A stretch of DNA of 64,000 bases, taken from assembly GCA_902523885.1 (NCBI GenBank), contig CABZAV010000003.1, forward strand, positions 75,527-139,526, read 5' to 3'. Of the stretch, positions 56,316 to 64,000 are shown piece after piece. The number at the start of each line of letters is the position of its first letter. Within the stretch, counting starts at the first letter, position 1. Position numbers and translations under genes: made by a program. The notes below the pieces were generated by a model. It made no database searches. It was not told where the DNA came from and saw only the letters and a program-made list of their open reading frames with translations. Source of the DNA: an uncultured SAR86 cluster bacterium (lineage in GTDB: Bacteria; Pseudomonadota; Gammaproteobacteria; Magnimaribacterales; AG-339-G14).

Positions 56316-57662
56316 ATGAATGTCGACATAATTATATTAGCTGCTGGACAAGGGAAAAGGATGCAGTCTAATTTACCCAAAGTTCTTCAGCCTTTAGGCA
56401 ACAAACCGCTTTTGCAACACGTAATCGATACTTGCTCTCAAATAAATAAGTCAAAACTTCATATAGTAGTCGGCGGTCATAACAAACTCATTCAATCTTC
56501 TGTAAAAGCTCCAAGATCTACTAATTGGGTGCTACAAAGAAAGCAACTTGGAACGGGCCATGCAGTCAAACAAACCCTATCGAGTTTAAGACCTAACTCC
56601 TGTGTAGTTGTAGTTTACGGCGATGGGCCCTTGGTAAGAATTAAAACTTTAAAAAAACTTATTTCAAGAACTTCTAGAGATAATTTGTCTCTTTTAACTT
56701 TTGAAGCGTCCAATCCAAAAGGTTTAGGCAGGATCATTAGACAAAGCAATTCAAAGGTAGTCGGCATAGTTGAAGAAAAAGATGCATCTGTTAGTGAGAG
56801 AAAAATTACTGAGGTTAATTCAGGAATTATGGCCACTTCATCTAAAAATTTAAAAGTTTGGCTGCCTCAACTCAAAAATAATAATGCTGCCAAGGAATAT
56901 TATTTAACGGATGTTGTTTCTTGTTGTCACAATGAAGAAAAAAGCATAACAGTAATAAACCTTGGAAATTCTGAAGAATTGTTAGGCGCTAACGATGCTC
57001 AAGAATTGCAAAATTTAGAGCGCATCTATCAAAAAGAAATGGCAAAAAGTTTCATAGAAAAGGGCGTTAAATTTGCTGATGTTAATCGAGTAGATTTTAG
57101 AGGTGAAATAGTTATTGGTAAAAATGTCTTCATCGATATTAATGTGGTTTTACAAGGAAACGTTTCTCTAGGAAATGATTGCATCATCTCAGCAGGCGCT
57201 GTAATTAAAGATTCAAAATTAAATAAAAAAGTTAAGGTAGAACCTTATTCGGTAATAGAAAATTCTCAAATTGGCGACAATTCATCTATTGGCCCATTTG
57301 CCCATGTTGGCCCAGGGGCAGAATTAGAACAAGGCGTCGAAGTAGGAAATTTTGTTGAAGTTAAAAGAAGCAAGATTGGCAAAAAAACAAAAGCCAAGCA
57401 CTTAGCCTACATAGGAGATGGCGCATTGGAGGCGGAAATAAATGTTGGTGCTGGAACAATTTTCGTAAATTACGACGGTAAAAATAAGAACAAAACTAAA
57501 GTTGGATCAAACGCTTTCATAGGCTCCAATAGCTCTCTTGTTGCCCCTTTGATAATTGGTAAAAACAGCATGATCGGGGCTGGTTCAGTCATAACCAAAA
57601 ACGTTTCAGAAAATAAATTGGCTTTGGGCAGAAGCAAACAAAAAAATATTAAGAAAAGATAA
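56316..57662 (+). CDS. glmU: Bifunctional GlmU (UDP-GlcNAc pyrophosphorylase / GlcN-1-P acetyltransferase)
   Basis: IIILAAGQGKRMQSNLPKVLQPLGNKPLLQHVI; left-handed beta-helix repeats; FVEVKRSKIGKKTKAKHLAYIGD; start ATG 56316 preferred to 56301. Confidence 0.96.
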   Translation: MNVDIIILAAGQGKRMQSNLPKVLQPLGNKPLLQHVIDTCSQINKSKLHIVVGGHNKLIQSSVKAPRSTNWVLQRKQLGTGHAVKQTLSSLRPNSCVVVVYGDGPLVRIKTLKKLISRTSRDNLSLLTFEASNPKGLGRIIRQSNSKVVGIVEEKDASVSERKITEVNSGIMATSSKNLKVWLPQLKNNNAAKEYYLTDVVSCCHNEEKSITVINLGNSEELLGANDAQELQNLERIYQKEMAKSFIEKGVKFADVNRVDFRGEIVIGKNVFIDINVVLQGNVSLGNDCIISAGAVIKDSKLNKKVKVEPYSVIENSQIGDNSSIGPFAHVGPGAELEQGVEVGNFVEVKRSKIGKKTKAKHLAYIGDGALEAEINVGAGTIFVNYDGKNKNKTKVGSNAFIGSNSSLVAPLIIGKNSMIGAGSVITKNVSENKLALGRSKQKNIKKR

Positions 57663-59488
57663 TGTGCGGAATAATTGCAGCAGCTACTGACAGAAGCGTC
57701 GGAAAACTTCTAGTTCAGGGGCTTCATAAAATGGAGTACCGAGGTTATGACTCGGCGGGTATTGCTTTGCACCAAGAGGATGGTGTTGCACATTTAAGAA
57801 CGCTCGGGAAAGTCAATTTGCTCGAAGAAAGAATGATACAAGAAAAGCCGAAAGGCAAAGTAGGCATTGCGCACACTCGATGGGCAACTCATGGCGAGCC
57901 TTCTGAATCAAATGCCCATCCTCATTCGTCAAAAAATAGAGTGTTTATTGTGCACAACGGCATCATTGAAAACTACTTAGCTTTGAAAGCTGCTTTATCA
58001 AAAAAAGGTTATTTATTTCAGTCTCAAACGGATTCAGAATTGATAGCTCACCTTATTGATAGTTTTCTAAATGATGGCAAAAGTATGATTGAAGGCATGC
58101 AGGCGCTTAAAACTAGTCTTGAGGGAGCCTACGCAATTGCAGCAATAGATAAGGAAGACTCAAATTATTTTTATTTAGCCAGAAACAAATCTCCTTTGCT
58201 TTTAGGTTTGGGGAAAGATGAGTATTTTGCTGCTTCAGATCCTCTGGCAATTGGCGAATTAACAAATCAGTTTATTTTTTTAGAAGATGGAGACACAGCA
58301 GCAGTCTCGGCATCAGGCTTAGAAATCTTTGATGAAAATCAAAAAGCTGTTGAAAGAAATGTCACAAAAATTGATATTTCTGCTGAGACGACTTCAAAAG
58401 GGAATTATAAGCATTTCATGGAAAAGGAGATTTACGAACAACCTCAAGCCATCAGAAATACCTTAGATGGAAGAATCGGTGGCGAAGACGTTTTAGAGAA
58501 TATTTTCGGAGAAGGCTCTTCAAAGTTGCTAGCGGAAGTAAAAAGAATCCAAATTGTCGCTGCTGGCACTAGCTTGCATGCAGGCAGAGTTGCGGCAAAC
58601 TGGTTTTCAGCAATTTCTCAAGTACCAACGCAAATAGATTTTGCGAGTGAATATACATACAAAAATCCTTATATTGATGAAAATACTTTGCTAGTAACCA
58701 TTTCTCAATCTGGCGAGACTGCGGATACATTGACTTCTTTGAGGCATGCAAAAAATCAAAGCTACTTAGGCTCCTTAACTATTTGCAACGTACCAACCAG
58801 CTCCATTGCTAGAGAATCTGATTTTCTCTTACTCACTAATGCTGGTCCAGAAATAGGTGTTGCTTCAACCAAAGCTTTTACCACTCAGTTAGTCGCACTG
58901 ATGATGTTGGCAATGTCGATTGCCAAGGCAAAAAATGTTAATCCCAAACTTAGAACAAGAATTGTTACGGCCTTGCGAGCATTGCCTGAGATTGTTGAAG
59001 AATCTTTAAAACTAAAAAAAGAAATTCAAGAGATTTCGCCCAAAATTGCAGAAAAAGACAATGCTCTTTTTCTTGGACGCGGTATGTTTTATCCAATCGC
59101 TAAAGAAGGAGCATTAAAGTTAAAAGAAATTTCTTATATTCATGCTGAAGCTTATCCAGCAGGCGAGTTAAAACACGGACCACTAGCATTGATTGATGAG
59201 AATATGCCTGTCGTGGCGCTTGCTCCAGAAAGCGAATTGGCCGAAAAACTTATTTCAAACTTGGAGGAAGTAAAAGCAAGGAGCGGGACTTTGTACGTTT
59301 TTGGAGATGCATCTAGCAATATGCAAATCGATTCTGGCAAGTTAATGACTATGCCAAAATGTGACTTTTTATTGACGCCTATTCTTTATACTATCCCGCT
59401 GCAAATATTGTCTTACGAGGTGGCTCTGATCAGAGGTACAGATATCGATCAACCAAGAAACTTAGCTAAGTCTGTCACCGTGGAGTAG
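57662..59488 (+). CDS. glmS: Glutamine-fructose-6-phosphate aminotransferase (isomerizing)
   Basis: CGIIAAATDRSVGKLLVQGLHKMEYRGYDSAGIA; ...DIDQPRNLAKSVTVE* conserved C-terminus. Confidence 0.98.
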   Translation: MCGIIAAATDRSVGKLLVQGLHKMEYRGYDSAGIALHQEDGVAHLRTLGKVNLLEERMIQEKPKGKVGIAHTRWATHGEPSESNAHPHSSKNRVFIVHNGIIENYLALKAALSKKGYLFQSQTDSELIAHLIDSFLNDGKSMIEGMQALKTSLEGAYAIAAIDKEDSNYFYLARNKSPLLLGLGKDEYFAASDPLAIGELTNQFIFLEDGDTAAVSASGLEIFDENQKAVERNVTKIDISAETTSKGNYKHFMEKEIYEQPQAIRNTLDGRIGGEDVLENIFGEGSSKLLAEVKRIQIVAAGTSLHAGRVAANWFSAISQVPTQIDFASEYTYKNPYIDENTLLVTISQSGETADTLTSLRHAKNQSYLGSLTICNVPTSSIARESDFLLLTNAGPEIGVASTKAFTTQLVALMMLAMSIAKAKNVNPKLRTRIVTALRALPEIVEESLKLKKEIQEISPKIAEKDNALFLGRGMFYPIAKEGALKLKEISYIHAEAYPAGELKHGPLALIDENMPVVALAPESELAEKLISNLEEVKARSGTLYVFGDASSNMQIDSGKLMTMPKCDFLLTPILYTIPLQILSYEVALIRGTDIDQPRNLAKSVTVE

Positions 59489-59490
59489 AT

Positions 59491-59501
59491 TTGGTTGTAC
59501 C
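59491..59501 (+). repeat. Left inverted repeat of putative cassette
   Basis: TTGGTTGTACC, 2 nt after the glmS stop codon. Confidence 0.6.
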
Positions 59502-59523
59502 AGTTAATTGAAGGACTTTGAAA

Positions 59524-59805
59524 ATGACTAGAAATCCGATCTTTTTTACCTTTTTTTTGATATCTATCCTATTTCAAGGTTGTAAACCTGGAATCTTTAA
59601 AGACGCGATCCAAGGTGAGTGGAAATACACTCAAAAATATAAAAATTGCTTATCGAAAGTAGAGAAATATATGATTAGAGAAAATGGATATCCCGAATCG
59701 GAATGGGGTGAAATTTGGTTTGATCAAGAGATGTATAGAAGGTGCGATAATCTTATTCCAGAGTCTGAAAGAAAAATAATTATAAGGGAAGGAATTTTCG
59801 ATTAG
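59524..59805 (+). CDS. Small lipoprotein of unknown function
   Basis: MTRNPIFFTFFLISILFQGCKPG: signal/lipobox; no family recognised. Start at ATG within ORF. Confidence 0.65.
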   Translation: MTRNPIFFTFFLISILFQGCKPGIFKDAIQGEWKYTQKYKNCLSKVEKYMIRENGYPESEWGEIWFDQEMYRRCDNLIPESERKIIIREGIFD

Positions 59806-59928
59806 CGTGAAAAAAAGAAATTCGACAATTAAAACTGCTCAATTACTCTTTTTTAAGTATATTTTTAATTTTAAAAGACACTAAAAACACGCACTATAGG
59901 TTTTAGTGCATAATAAATAGACTTTAGT

Positions 59929-60654
59929 ATGTTAATAATTAGTAAAATGAAATTTAAGATTTCAGCATTATATTTCTTAATCCTTTTTTCCCAACTTTCA
60001 CTTTCTTCAATTAAATATGATAAGACTCCATGGACTTTTGAAGACTCTTCTGTTTATCCTTCTTGTTTAGAAACGGTAAGAGATTCAGGCGATCATTATG
60101 AAGCAGTATCAGATTTCTATAAACTAAACGAAGATTATTCTAACTTCTATGACAACCCGGGTCTTTTTTTTGAAAATCCAGTATCTCTTTATCCAAAAAA
60201 ACCAATAATTCCTTCTTGGTGTGATCTTGATGTTTTCGCTTCTGAAAGTCATTGCAAAGACGGACTTAAGTTACATAAAACTTATCCTTCGTGTAATAAC
60301 TTGCCAAAAGACTTCAAAATTATCGATGATGGATCATATATTGAAATTTATTTAGAAGATTTTTATTCTGATGGAGAAATTAGTTATTCAGGATTTCAAA
60401 AATATCACTTACAAAAAAAAATTTCTGTAGAGACTTGTCAAAAATTAGCGCCTAATGTTCTTGGTAAATGTTTGGATTCTTATTTTCTCGTCAAAGACGA
60501 GAATGGAGGAGGATCATTCACATCGAGATACTTTTATGTCTTTGGCATTTTTGACATTGCTGATAAAAAAAACGGCAGTTATGAGGTTCTCCCTTTGAAA
60601 CAATTTGATTCTTTTGAAGAAGGGATGGAATTCCTATCTAGAATGAACCAATAA
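59929..60654 (+). CDS. Secreted Cys-containing protein of unknown function
   Basis: Signal-peptide-like KFKISALYFLILFSQLSLSS; no family recognised. True start may be the Met at 59947. Confidence 0.65.
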   Translation: MLIISKMKFKISALYFLILFSQLSLSSIKYDKTPWTFEDSSVYPSCLETVRDSGDHYEAVSDFYKLNEDYSNFYDNPGLFFENPVSLYPKKPIIPSWCDLDVFASESHCKDGLKLHKTYPSCNNLPKDFKIIDDGSYIEIYLEDFYSDGEISYSGFQKYHLQKKISVETCQKLAPNVLGKCLDSYFLVKDENGGGSFTSRYFYVFGIFDIADKKNGSYEVLPLKQFDSFEEGMEFLSRMNQ

Positions 60655-60697
60655 ATTAAGCATTTTTTTGACCCAATCTAAAGATTATAAAAAAACA

Positions 60698-60708
60698 GGT
60701 ACAACCAA
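60698..60708 (-). repeat. Right inverted repeat of putative cassette
   Basis: GGTACAACCAA, reverse complement of 59491-59501. Confidence 0.6.
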
Positions 60709-60717
60709 TTCAACTTC

Positions 60718-60734
60718 GTCACTGTCGAGTAGAT
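60718..60734 (+). repeat. Second, degenerate copy of glmS 3' end
   Basis: GTCACTGTCGAGTAGAT vs glmS end GTCACCGTGGAGTAGAT (59474-59490); 15/17 identical, both differences synonymous in the glmS frame (VTVE*). Confidence 0.65.
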
Positions 60735-60740
60735 CTACAT

Positions 60741-60759
60741 AGGGGTTTTAGCAACCCCT
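60741..60759 (+). terminator. Rho-independent terminator-like hairpin
   Basis: AGGGGTT-TTAGC-AACCCCT followed by TCTAAAAAATTTTTT. Confidence 0.75.
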
Positions 60760-60783
60760 TCTAAAAAATTTTTTATATGCCCT

Positions 60784-60824
60784 TTGTTAAAACATTAACA
60801 ACACTCAGAAGCAAATGGCATAAT
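60784..60824 (+). promoter_or_regulatory. Putative promoter/operator of the type III R-M genes
   Basis: Perfect inverted repeat TTGTTAA-aaca-TTAACAA (60784-60801); -35-like TTAACA, 18 bp, -10-like CATAAT (60819-60824). Confidence 0.5.
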
Positions 60825-60832
60825 AAAAAATA

Positions 60833-63082
60833 ATGAAATTAACAGATAATGAAAAACGAGATGTAGTAAAACTTATTGAGGAAGGCAAAGTCTTACCTGA
60901 AAAATATCGTTTCTTATTATTTGATGAATCTAAACAAGTAGAACTTACCTGGAACGGCAAATCTGATGAAGTCACAAACGTTGTTCTACCATTTCAAATC
61001 ATTGAACAAATAGACGAACCAAGAAATGAAGAAGTCAAAATGGCACAAGGGTCATTTGATTTTACATCAGGTCGTCAAATGACAGGTTGGACTAACAAAC
61101 TCATATGGGGAGATAACAAATATATTCTTTCCTCACTTAAAAACGGTCCCATGAGAGAGGAGATTGAAAAAGAAGGTGGAATCAAACTGATTTATATAGA
61201 CCCACCATTTGATGTTGGTGCAGATTTTTCTATGAATGTAGATATTGGTGAGGGTTCTTATGAGAAAAAACCAAACGTTTTAGAGCACATTGCATATAGA
61301 GATACATGGGGCAAAGGAAAAGATTCATTCCTGTCAATGATATATCAACGATTAGTTTTGATGAAAGATTTATTGGCAGACGATGGAAGTATATTTGTTC
61401 ACTGTGATTGGAGATTAAATTCTTCCATTAAATTAATAATGGATGAAATATTTGGAGTTGATAATCTGATTAATGAAATTATTTGGAAAAGAAGAGGAGG
61501 AGTCTTAAATGAAACAAATCGTTATGGAAATGTTGTGGATTTCATACTCTATTATGCAAAAACTAACCAAAGTGTTTTTTATCCTCAAAAGACAAAAGAT
61601 GATGAGAATACAAAAGAGTATATAAAAAAGAGGTTTAATAAAACAGAAACTGACGGAAGAAAATATATGTTGCAACCAATGGGTGCACCAAAAGACAGAC
61701 CAAATTTAAAATATATGTATAAAGGATACAGTCCTCCAAAGAATGGTTGGTTGGTTTCCGAAGACCGAATGAAAGAATTAGATGAAAAGGGATTGTTGTA
61801 TTTACCTGAGGACAAATCATTAAGAATTTCAAGAAAGATTTATGAGGATGATTACGAAGGGCAATTGGTTGACTCATTATGGACAGATATATTCCCTATA
61901 AATCCAGTTGCAAAGGAAAGAATAGATTACCCAACCCAAAAACCTGAAAAACTTTTAGAACGCATAATAAATTCAACAACCATTGAGGGAGACCTAGTCG
62001 CAGATTTCTTTTGTGGTTCAGCAACAACTGCAGCAGTTTCAGAAAAATTGAATAGAAAATGGATATGTTCTGACCTTGGCAAATTTTCTATTCACGCATC
62101 AAGAAAAAGAATGATTGGTGTTCAAAGAGAAATGAAGAAAGAAGAAAAAAATTGGAGAGCATTTGAAATTCTCAATCTAGGAAAATATCAAAGACAGCAT
62201 TATATCTATGATGGCAAAGAAGAAAGAGATGAATTGAAACAAAATGAAAAAATAAAAAAAGAAAAAGAATTTGAAAATCTCATACTGGGAGCATACAAAG
62301 CAATTAGTGTAGATGGGTTTGCAACTATCCATGGGAAAAAGGGTTCTGACTTCGTTTCTCTAGGTCCGATAAATCAACCTTTGTCTAGAAACCATGTTGA
62401 GGAAGTTATAACAGAATGTGTGAAGAATAAAATAACTTCAGTTGATATTCTTGGTTTTGAATATGAAATGGGTTTATTTCCAACAATCCAAGAAGAGGCA
62501 AAAGCAAAGGGATTAAGGTTATCTTATAAACAAATTCCAATGGAAGTTTTTGATAAGAGAGCAGTTTCCAAGGGAGAGGTATTATTTCATGATGTTGCAT
62601 ATATTGAATTTAAACCTCATTTTGATGGAAGAAAACTTTCAATTGAGTTAACTGATTTTGCTGTTTTTTATAATGAAGGCAATCTAAGTATTGATGAATC
62701 ACTTCCAAATGGTAAGTCTAAAGTTGTCGTTGAAAATGGTCAAATTGTGGAAAAGAAAAAAAACAAGGACGGCATTATCTCTGAATCAATTCTTACTACA
62801 AGTTGGCATGATTGGATAGATTATTGGTCTGTTGATTTCGATTATGAGTCAAAACCTGAAATTATTAAGTTCAAAACAGAAGATGGAAATGTAGAAGAAG
62901 AGTGGACAGGTAATTATGTCTTTGAAAATGAATGGCAATCATTTAGAGGGAAAAAGGGCAAAGATAAATTAGAACTCAAGTCATCTGATAGAGAAATAGC
63001 AAAAGATAATACTAAAGTTGCAGTCAAAGTAGTAGATATCTTTGGTAATGACACGATGAAGGTTCTTGAGGTTAAGGTCTAA
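60833..63082 (+). CDS. Type III restriction-modification system DNA methyltransferase (Mod)
   Basis: LIYIDPPFDVGADF (motif IV) preceding TQKPEKLLERIINSTTIEGDLVADFFCGSATTAAVSEKLNRKWICSDLG (motif I region): beta-class methyltransferase order. Confidence 0.93.
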   Translation: MKLTDNEKRDVVKLIEEGKVLPEKYRFLLFDESKQVELTWNGKSDEVTNVVLPFQIIEQIDEPRNEEVKMAQGSFDFTSGRQMTGWTNKLIWGDNKYILSSLKNGPMREEIEKEGGIKLIYIDPPFDVGADFSMNVDIGEGSYEKKPNVLEHIAYRDTWGKGKDSFLSMIYQRLVLMKDLLADDGSIFVHCDWRLNSSIKLIMDEIFGVDNLINEIIWKRRGGVLNETNRYGNVVDFILYYAKTNQSVFYPQKTKDDENTKEYIKKRFNKTETDGRKYMLQPMGAPKDRPNLKYMYKGYSPPKNGWLVSEDRMKELDEKGLLYLPEDKSLRISRKIYEDDYEGQLVDSLWTDIFPINPVAKERIDYPTQKPEKLLERIINSTTIEGDLVADFFCGSATTAAVSEKLNRKWICSDLGKFSIHASRKRMIGVQREMKKEEKNWRAFEILNLGKYQRQHYIYDGKEERDELKQNEKIKKEKEFENLILGAYKAISVDGFATIHGKKGSDFVSLGPINQPLSRNHVEEVITECVKNKITSVDILGFEYEMGLFPTIQEEAKAKGLRLSYKQIPMEVFDKRAVSKGEVLFHDVAYIEFKPHFDGRKLSIELTDFAVFYNEGNLSIDESLPNGKSKVVVENGQIVEKKKNKDGIISESILTTSWHDWIDYWSVDFDYESKPEIIKFKTEDGNVEEEWTGNYVFENEWQSFRGKKGKDKLELKSSDREIAKDNTKVAVKVVDIFGNDTMKVLEVKV

Positions 63083-64000
63083 TGGGTTTAGATAAAAACT
63101 TTCCTCGTCATCCTCACGCAATTATCAGTCCTGATGTTCGTTGGTATCCAGGCAGTGACGCAATAGGTGAAAAAGGAAGAGAAAAACTTTTACCACCCCT
63201 AGTAAATAGAATTAGAAAAGAGGTTTATGACTGGAGAGAAGCAGGTTATCCAAATATATCTGAAGTATCTCAATCCCTTTTAACTTATTGGTTTAAAACA
63301 GACCATCCCAATGGGTTTCAATATTATTTTGCACAAAGAGAGTCAGTTGAATCAATCATTTATTTATATGAACATGAAGATATAAGAAACCCATCTGAAC
63401 TTCTTAAATATGACTCCTCAGGTGTTTTGGTTGATTCTATGTTTGAGGAAACATGGTTAAGACTAGTCGTAAAACAGGCAACAGGAACTGGTAAAACAAA
63501 GGTGTTGTCTTTGTTAATGGCATGGTGTTATTTCCATAAAGAATTCAATGAAGACTCTGAACTTTCACAAAATTATCTTCTTCTTGCACCAAACACTATT
63601 GTTTTAGACAGATTAAAAGACGATATAGAGGGATTGAGTGTTTTTAACAAAGACCCAGTTCTTCCACCAAATGGTTATGGTGGCAGGTCTTGGAACTTTT
63701 ATCCAAAGGTTCACATACAAGATAATATTGGTTCTCTTTCAAAAAGTGGAAATATTTTCTTAACAAACATTCAAAGGTTTGTGACAAGAGCAGAAAAAGT
63801 TGATGAGAACTCAAGTATGGATTATTTCCTTGGAGATAAACCTGTGACCAAGACAACCGATAATAAAATTCTTGTTCGAGATATAGTAAATAATATTGAT
63901 GACATTATCGTATTTAATGATGAGGCACATCACATACATGACAAAAAACTTGCATGGTTTAAAACTATTGAGACTATAAACAACAGTCTTGTTCAAAAAG
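63082..64000 (+). CDS. Type III restriction endonuclease, helicase/Res subunit (partial, runs off window)
   Basis: Own translation: MGLDKNFPRHPHAIISPDVRWYPG...LVVKQATGTGKTKVLSLLMAWCYFHK...LLLAPNTIVLDRLK...DIIVFNDEAHHIHDKK (Walker A and DEAH-box); TAATG coupling with mod. Not in ORF track. Confidence 0.92.
   Translation, partial: MGLDKNFPRHPHAIISPDVRWYPGSDAIGEKGREKLLPPLVNRIRKEVYDWREAGYPNISEVSQSLLTYWFKTDHPNGFQYYFAQRESVESIIYLYEHEDIRNPSELLKYDSSGVLVDSMFEETWLRLVVKQATGTGKTKVLSLLMAWCYFHKEFNEDSELSQNYLLLAPNTIVLDRLKDDIEGLSVFNKDPVLPPNGYGGRSWNFYPKVHIQDNIGSLSKSGNIFLTNIQRFVTRAEKVDENSSMDYFLGDKPVTKTTDNKILVRDIVNNIDDIIVFNDEAHHIHDKKLAWFKTIETINNSLVQK

Follow-up and report, generated by a model that had tools for sequence, protein, structure and literature searches.

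The large serine recombinases (LSRs) CcrA/CcrB insert the SCC/SCCmec and ECC elements at the 3′ end of rlmH, where direct-repeat att sites flank the inserted DNA; the att site of the circular form is a dyad made by inverted repeats, and remnants of the elements can persist (PMC6222049). The arrays described here resemble these elements in their insertion at the 3′ end of a housekeeping gene, their flanking direct repeats and their dyad att site, but the target is glmS instead of rlmH, the core is GTNACNGTNGARTRR instead of TATCATAA, the units are mostly smaller than 1 kb and LSR-less, the arms vary from unit to unit, and the LSR gene contains or adjoins the site. We placed the glmS arrays outside SCC/ECC on the basis of the target gene and the core; no CcrAB pair was identified. 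Tn7 also inserts downstream of glmS, generating a 5-bp duplication and leaving the gene untouched; the same gene end is targeted in our arrays, but the last glmS codons are exchanged and the boundary lies inside codons. Integron cassettes likewise form arrays of small, promoter-poor-looking units behind a fixed site, and their paired sequences are particular to each cassette, whereas the arrays at glmS possess no attC consensus, do not generally come with an IntI-like enzyme, involve a serine-family recombinase, exchange at AC and not at G/TT, and carry arms at both cassette ends, unlike attC, whose R and L boxes are at the cassette 3′ end. Phage-type LSRs (LI/A118, TP901-1 and SPbeta YokA) share with the LSRs of this locus the Resolvase, Recombinase and zinc-ribbon domains, sequence similarity and an attP half-site of ~25 bp with an outer motif at positions 16-24 (PMC3783163), but they lack the extra C-terminal domain that here is encoded across the att site and cut off from the LSR by integration, and the many LSR-less cassettes with a shared core.

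We analysed a 64,000-nucleotide stretch of DNA (the window) from an uncultured SAR86 cluster bacterium, in which glmS occupies 57662-59488. A scan of the whole window placed TTGGTTGTACC at 59491-59501, beginning 2 nt past the glmS stop, and its exact reverse complement at 60698-60708, ending 9 nt short of a copy of the glmS tail at 60718, with no third match at up to one mismatch. The perfect 11-bp inverted repeats that had been predicted to delimit the segment after glmS are thus both present and unique in the window. With mismatches allowed, the repeats become arms of 22 nt (59484-59505 and 60694-60715) that are 86% complementary, so that the similarity extends inward, as the original prediction had it, and outward as well. 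The features of the locus are as follows.

59474-59488, + strand: core 1, the last glmS codons and stop, GTCACCGTGGAGTAG; exchange at AC, 59477-59478; left end of cassette 1
59478-60721, + strand: cassette 1, 1244 bp, from the AC of core 1 to the AC of core 2
59484-59505, + strand: left arm of cassette 1; perfect stretch 59491-59501
59518-59805, + strand: ORF listed at 95 aa, with its ATG probably at 59524 and a start resembling that of a lipoprotein; no family over the curated cut-off
59929-60654, + strand: ORF of 241 aa with a hydrophobic start; no family over the curated cut-off
60694-60715, - strand: right arm of cassette 1; perfect stretch 60698-60708
60718-60732, + strand: core 2, a noncoding copy of the glmS end, GTCACTGTCGAGTAG; exchange at 60721-60722
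60722-64000 (window end), + strand: cassette 2, type III restriction-modification; runs on to about 66058, a unit of 5337 bp
60735-60745, + strand: left arm of cassette 2, CTACATAGGGG; pairs, one base off the usual register, with CCCCTTTGTAG past the window end
60833-63082, + strand: mod, type III methyltransferase, cargo of cassette 2
63082-64000 (cut by the window end), + strand: res, type III restriction subunit, cargo of cassette 2; about 5608-8256 in L031, the locus of the window

On window statistics alone the repeat is modest: two or more matches at up to one mismatch arose in 13 of 100 shuffles, and the same 7 kb contains another inverted pair that is longer and less perfect. Decisive support comes instead from its recurrence, since the core together with the window's arm was detected in 11 of the 204 genomes of the order, distributed over six genera, with no match for a reversed-pattern control. 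Where these loci were read the inserts differed, the units with this arm type carrying different cargo except for one unit common to two genomes (G016 and G356). The repeats are kept at the boundary in related loci, and the cassette 1 segment is missing from the relatives examined; both observations agree with the mobile unit that had been proposed. The same holds for its description as a non-autonomous cargo unit beside glmS, as cassette 1 contains no recombinase and the same ends surround other inserts elsewhere. Its two ORFs gave nothing above the curated cut-off in Pfam and nothing in NCBIfam or PADLOC, and the two proteins had no match at the other glmS loci examined. The prediction had seen no direct target duplication; the glmS-end core, however, is directly repeated at 59474-59488 and 60718-60732, and this core is the recombination site.

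We read the DNA behind glmS, up to 20 kb, in 34 genomes of the host's order and then in more, which gave 48 loci in total. This DNA consists largely of tandem units (112 units examined, median 675 bp), each starting within a duplicated glmS 3′ end, whose core is TCNGTNACNGTNGARTRR. At least two exact glmS-end cores were present within 12 kb in 23 of the 34 loci, and up to seven units followed one another. Nearly all core copies are in the orientation of glmS, and the units run from core to core. When 14 genomes were searched whole, the cores were found behind glmS, the exceptions being three copies spread over two other contigs; in the same genomes a reversed-pattern control for the core gave zero matches. 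The genomes of the order, mostly fragmented assemblies, are ~1.1 Mb in size, and 23 of 25 encode proteorhodopsin, both of which point to SAR86. Extra core copies were rare among 274 genomes of the class, nearly all of them outside the order. Four candidates were followed up, and only one, G062 of another order (locus L078), had two nearby copies; it was rejected as a core-bounded unit, being another type of insertion, 1.9 kb long, between glmS ends that share a longer repeat. We read an ORF in this insertion as Fic-like.

The exchange point was mapped with 160 cores. The core follows the pattern TCN1 GTN2 AC N3 GTN4 GAR stop, whose third positions are free to vary. Cores that had their left flank but not their right flank in common agreed at N1 and N2 (0.67 and 0.59, against backgrounds of 0.34 and 0.26) and were near background at N3 and N4 (0.38 and 0.34, against 0.32 and 0.32). 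Cores with the same right flank agreed at N3, N4, R and the stop (0.63, 0.52, 0.81 and 0.78), and N1 and N2 were not shared. These results place the exchange between N2 and N3, at AC. In this comparative mapping the crossover lies at the dinucleotide in the centre of the dyad. The sharpest case is the unit common to G016 (family f1) and G356 (family f3), which is 1391 bp long, has the window's arm type and encodes a HIT-domain protein. It shows no mismatch from AC to AC; the first mismatches outside it are at N2 to the left and at N3 to the right, and the last 120 bases of glmS agree at only 82. An identical unit beside diverged glmS sequence demonstrates a recent transfer and a boundary fixed at AC. 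Other units are 94-99% identical between families over nearly their whole length. The units and cores, the exchange point and the transfer between families are thus established at the level of sequence. One anomaly is the pair G000/G006, which differs at N1, N2, N3 and N4, a pattern unexpected from a single exchange at AC. In this pair (loci L002 and L001) the glmS 3′ ends are 97% identical at third codon positions, and the last four codons are all different, two of them left of the mapped exchange point. A first estimate from this pair alone had put the exchange left of TCN and was discarded once the 160 cores placed it at AC.

The mapped boundary bears directly on the proposal, made in the original prediction, of a DDE transposon with TGT...ACA termini. 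A remnant of a DDE or Tn7-like transposon at attTn7 would account for the position behind glmS and for the TGT...ACA within the repeats. The exchange, however, occurs 13 nt outside each repeat, at the central AC of the core, which puts the boundaries inside glmS codons; the arms also vary between units while the core stays constant, and no transposase, including Tns genes, was matched in the window's units. We consider this origin extremely improbable.

Arm pairing was assessed by joining the two ends of each unit as in a circle and counting base pairing across the core. In the 112 units the arms pair in a fixed register, about 10-28 from the core centre and best at 16-25. At positions 14-27 an average unit formed 9.2 of 14 pairs, compared with 5.3 when the arms came from different units and 3.5-4.4 when the register was slid, and at least 11 pairs were formed in 61 of the 112 units, compared with 4.2% of controls. 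The arm sequences differ from unit to unit (27 arm types) around the constant core. The excess of pairing within units over that between units indicates that the arms match each other and not one common sequence. Since an LSR attP half-site is 25 bp long with its zinc-domain (ZD) motif at 16-24 (PMC3783163), the pairing maximum at 16-25 lies over the published motif, as in a near-palindromic attP of ~50 bp. Strong pairing was absent in 51 of the 112 units, which we attribute to fusion or decay. For instance, one unit of 684 bp appears to be a fusion: its cargo is shared with two consecutive units, of 538 bp and then 249 bp, and no core separates them.

We found LSR genes that carry the site. 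When viral contigs were scanned for the core plus a portion of the flanks, one matched: L092, a contig of 7404 bp with a 77-bp terminal repeat (circular). Its site is an intact palindrome in the usual register, located inside a gene for a 733-residue LSR (about codons 599-605), and only 3 of 7284 positions of L092 pair equally well. The Resolvase, Recombinase and zinc-ribbon Pfam domains of this LSR all score above the cut-off. In G408, a 6047-bp unit at glmS has at its right end a 551-residue LSR, with PF00239 and PF07508 above the cut-off and PF13408 just under it. The unit also encodes a rolling-circle Rep (PF23343). At the left end of the same unit, against the glmS core, is an ORF related to the C-terminal domain of the L092 LSR; the G408 LSR ends before the core, and the C-terminal domain is read in a different frame. 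A profile built from this domain matched 21 places, in 19 of which the domain starts at a core and points away from it; the window's cassette 2 accounts for one of the 21, at its right end outside the window. The arms of an LSR-less unit in G032 (unit 2) are nearly those of the G408 element. The LSRs are similar to YokA and TP901-1 integrase and are phage-integrase-like by PHROGs. Arm pairing and the site-carrying LSR elements are established on the same footing as the exchange point. The recombinase expected to share the window's ends was found in part: elements that have ends of this kind and encode a recombinase do occur, but none was found with the window's arm type (TTTGGTTGTACC arms).

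Viral scans with two specific arm types gave no matches, and the 12 matches of a generic viral scan, which had no visible array and no paired arms, were taken as chance. Relatives of the L092 or G408 LSR were found nowhere else among the viral contigs. Two more LSR genes, of 525-526 residues, lie away from glmS (G032:C1, about 250674, and G035:C2, about 1414). L092 also encodes a second, small serine recombinase (1649-1883 in reverse-complement coordinates), whose C-terminal helix-turn-helix fits the profile of the LSR C-terminal domain.

These LSR genes also weigh on an integron-type explanation, in which a tyrosine integrase would act on folded, single-stranded, attC-like hairpins, accounting for arms that pair with themselves and share no sequence. 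The cassette arrays, the mostly uniform orientation of the small units and the conservation of the arms as pairing and not as sequence are all as such a system would have them. The exchange, however, takes place at the dyad centre and not at the hairpin base, the palindrome sits in an LSR gene, and the LSR domain abuts the cores. Most genomes of the order moreover contain only two full-length tyrosine recombinases, of ~300 residues and XerC/XerD-like, and no IntI-like tyrosine integrase was present beside glmS in the places checked. We judge the integron-type explanation to be highly unlikely; the single-strand hairpin reading was dropped after the dyad centre emerged as the exchange point and site-carrying LSR genes were found. 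XerC/XerD, nearly the sole tyrosine recombinases present, received no support as the movers.

The rest of the window's array illustrates how cargo is rearranged. Its third unit, of 468 bp, lies beyond the window and ends at a decayed core at ~66523 (L031 9049), and the sequence past this core is common to G006, G001 and G007, which belong to the same genus and have different units between glmS and that shared boundary. The res gene of cassette 2 is 95.5% identical to that at L120 8365-11013 in G470, a member of another family; both are behind glmS, and their arms differ. The methyltransferases of the two loci are only 73% identical, in contrast to res. We read this as module shuffling within a transferred restriction-modification system. 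The same cargo with different arms, together with fused or chimeric units, suggests that homologous exchange also shuffles cargo. It is conceivable that nothing moves site-specifically at present, and that the remains of old, decayed LSR insertions are spread by homologous recombination, both within the arrays and at glmS. The rearranged units just described are what this would produce, some cores have decayed, and LSR bodies are rare, occurring in few of the 204 genomes of the order. Two observations stand against it. The 1391-bp block does not differ between families, both its breakpoints fall at AC and the glmS sequence beyond it has diverged; further units are nearly identical across families over almost their full length. 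We regard decay with homologous spread as unlikely, though less so than an integron-type system.

With high confidence, we conclude that the segment after glmS is a non-autonomous cassette, integrated site-specifically at the glmS 3′ end, presumably by an LSR. In the proposed mechanism, the circular intermediate of a cassette would carry a palindromic attP of ~50 bp, composed of the right arm, the glmS-end core and the left arm. The LSR would catalyse recombination of this attP with the glmS 3′ end as attB, the exchange taking place at the central AC. Integration would split the palindrome so that one arm comes to lie at either end of the cassette, the two forming inverted repeats. The half-core brought in would rebuild the last GlmS codons and the stop, keeping GlmS intact, and the displaced half-core would be left behind the cassette. 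Restoration of GlmS codons by a half-core would explain the codon-like degeneracy of noncoding cores. Because each junction would keep a core, units could stack and arrays grow. The autonomous parents would be small LSR elements, and LSR-less cassettes would be mobilised in trans, relying on an LSR with matching arms.

A wider reading, which we advance tentatively and at somewhat less than even confidence, is that glmS serves in this one order as a gene-cassette platform used by many LSR families, every one of which would have a separate arm code, the core being common to all. The att site in or beside the LSR gene would then make integration a built-in switch that parts the LSR from its C-terminal domain, and the LSR-less cassettes would form a gene pool between families. 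A literature search, which covered little of the subscription journals, found no LSR at glmS, and SAR86 was never joined with serine recombinases. The LSR-type, integron-like cassette arrays at glmS are a variant of SCC-like working with a different target, core and recombinases.

If this account is correct, many recombinase/site pairs are predicted, and the target sequence is present in most of the gammaproteobacteria sampled. The variable arms on a constant core provide a natural series for studying changes in the arm specificity of serine recombinases. Reading between glmS-end cores would be a simple finder of recently transferred genes, and cargo such as restriction-modification systems would be tied to a defined route of spread. 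Ocean bacteria with small genomes would thus own an integron-like site for gene acquisition that is run by serine recombinases.
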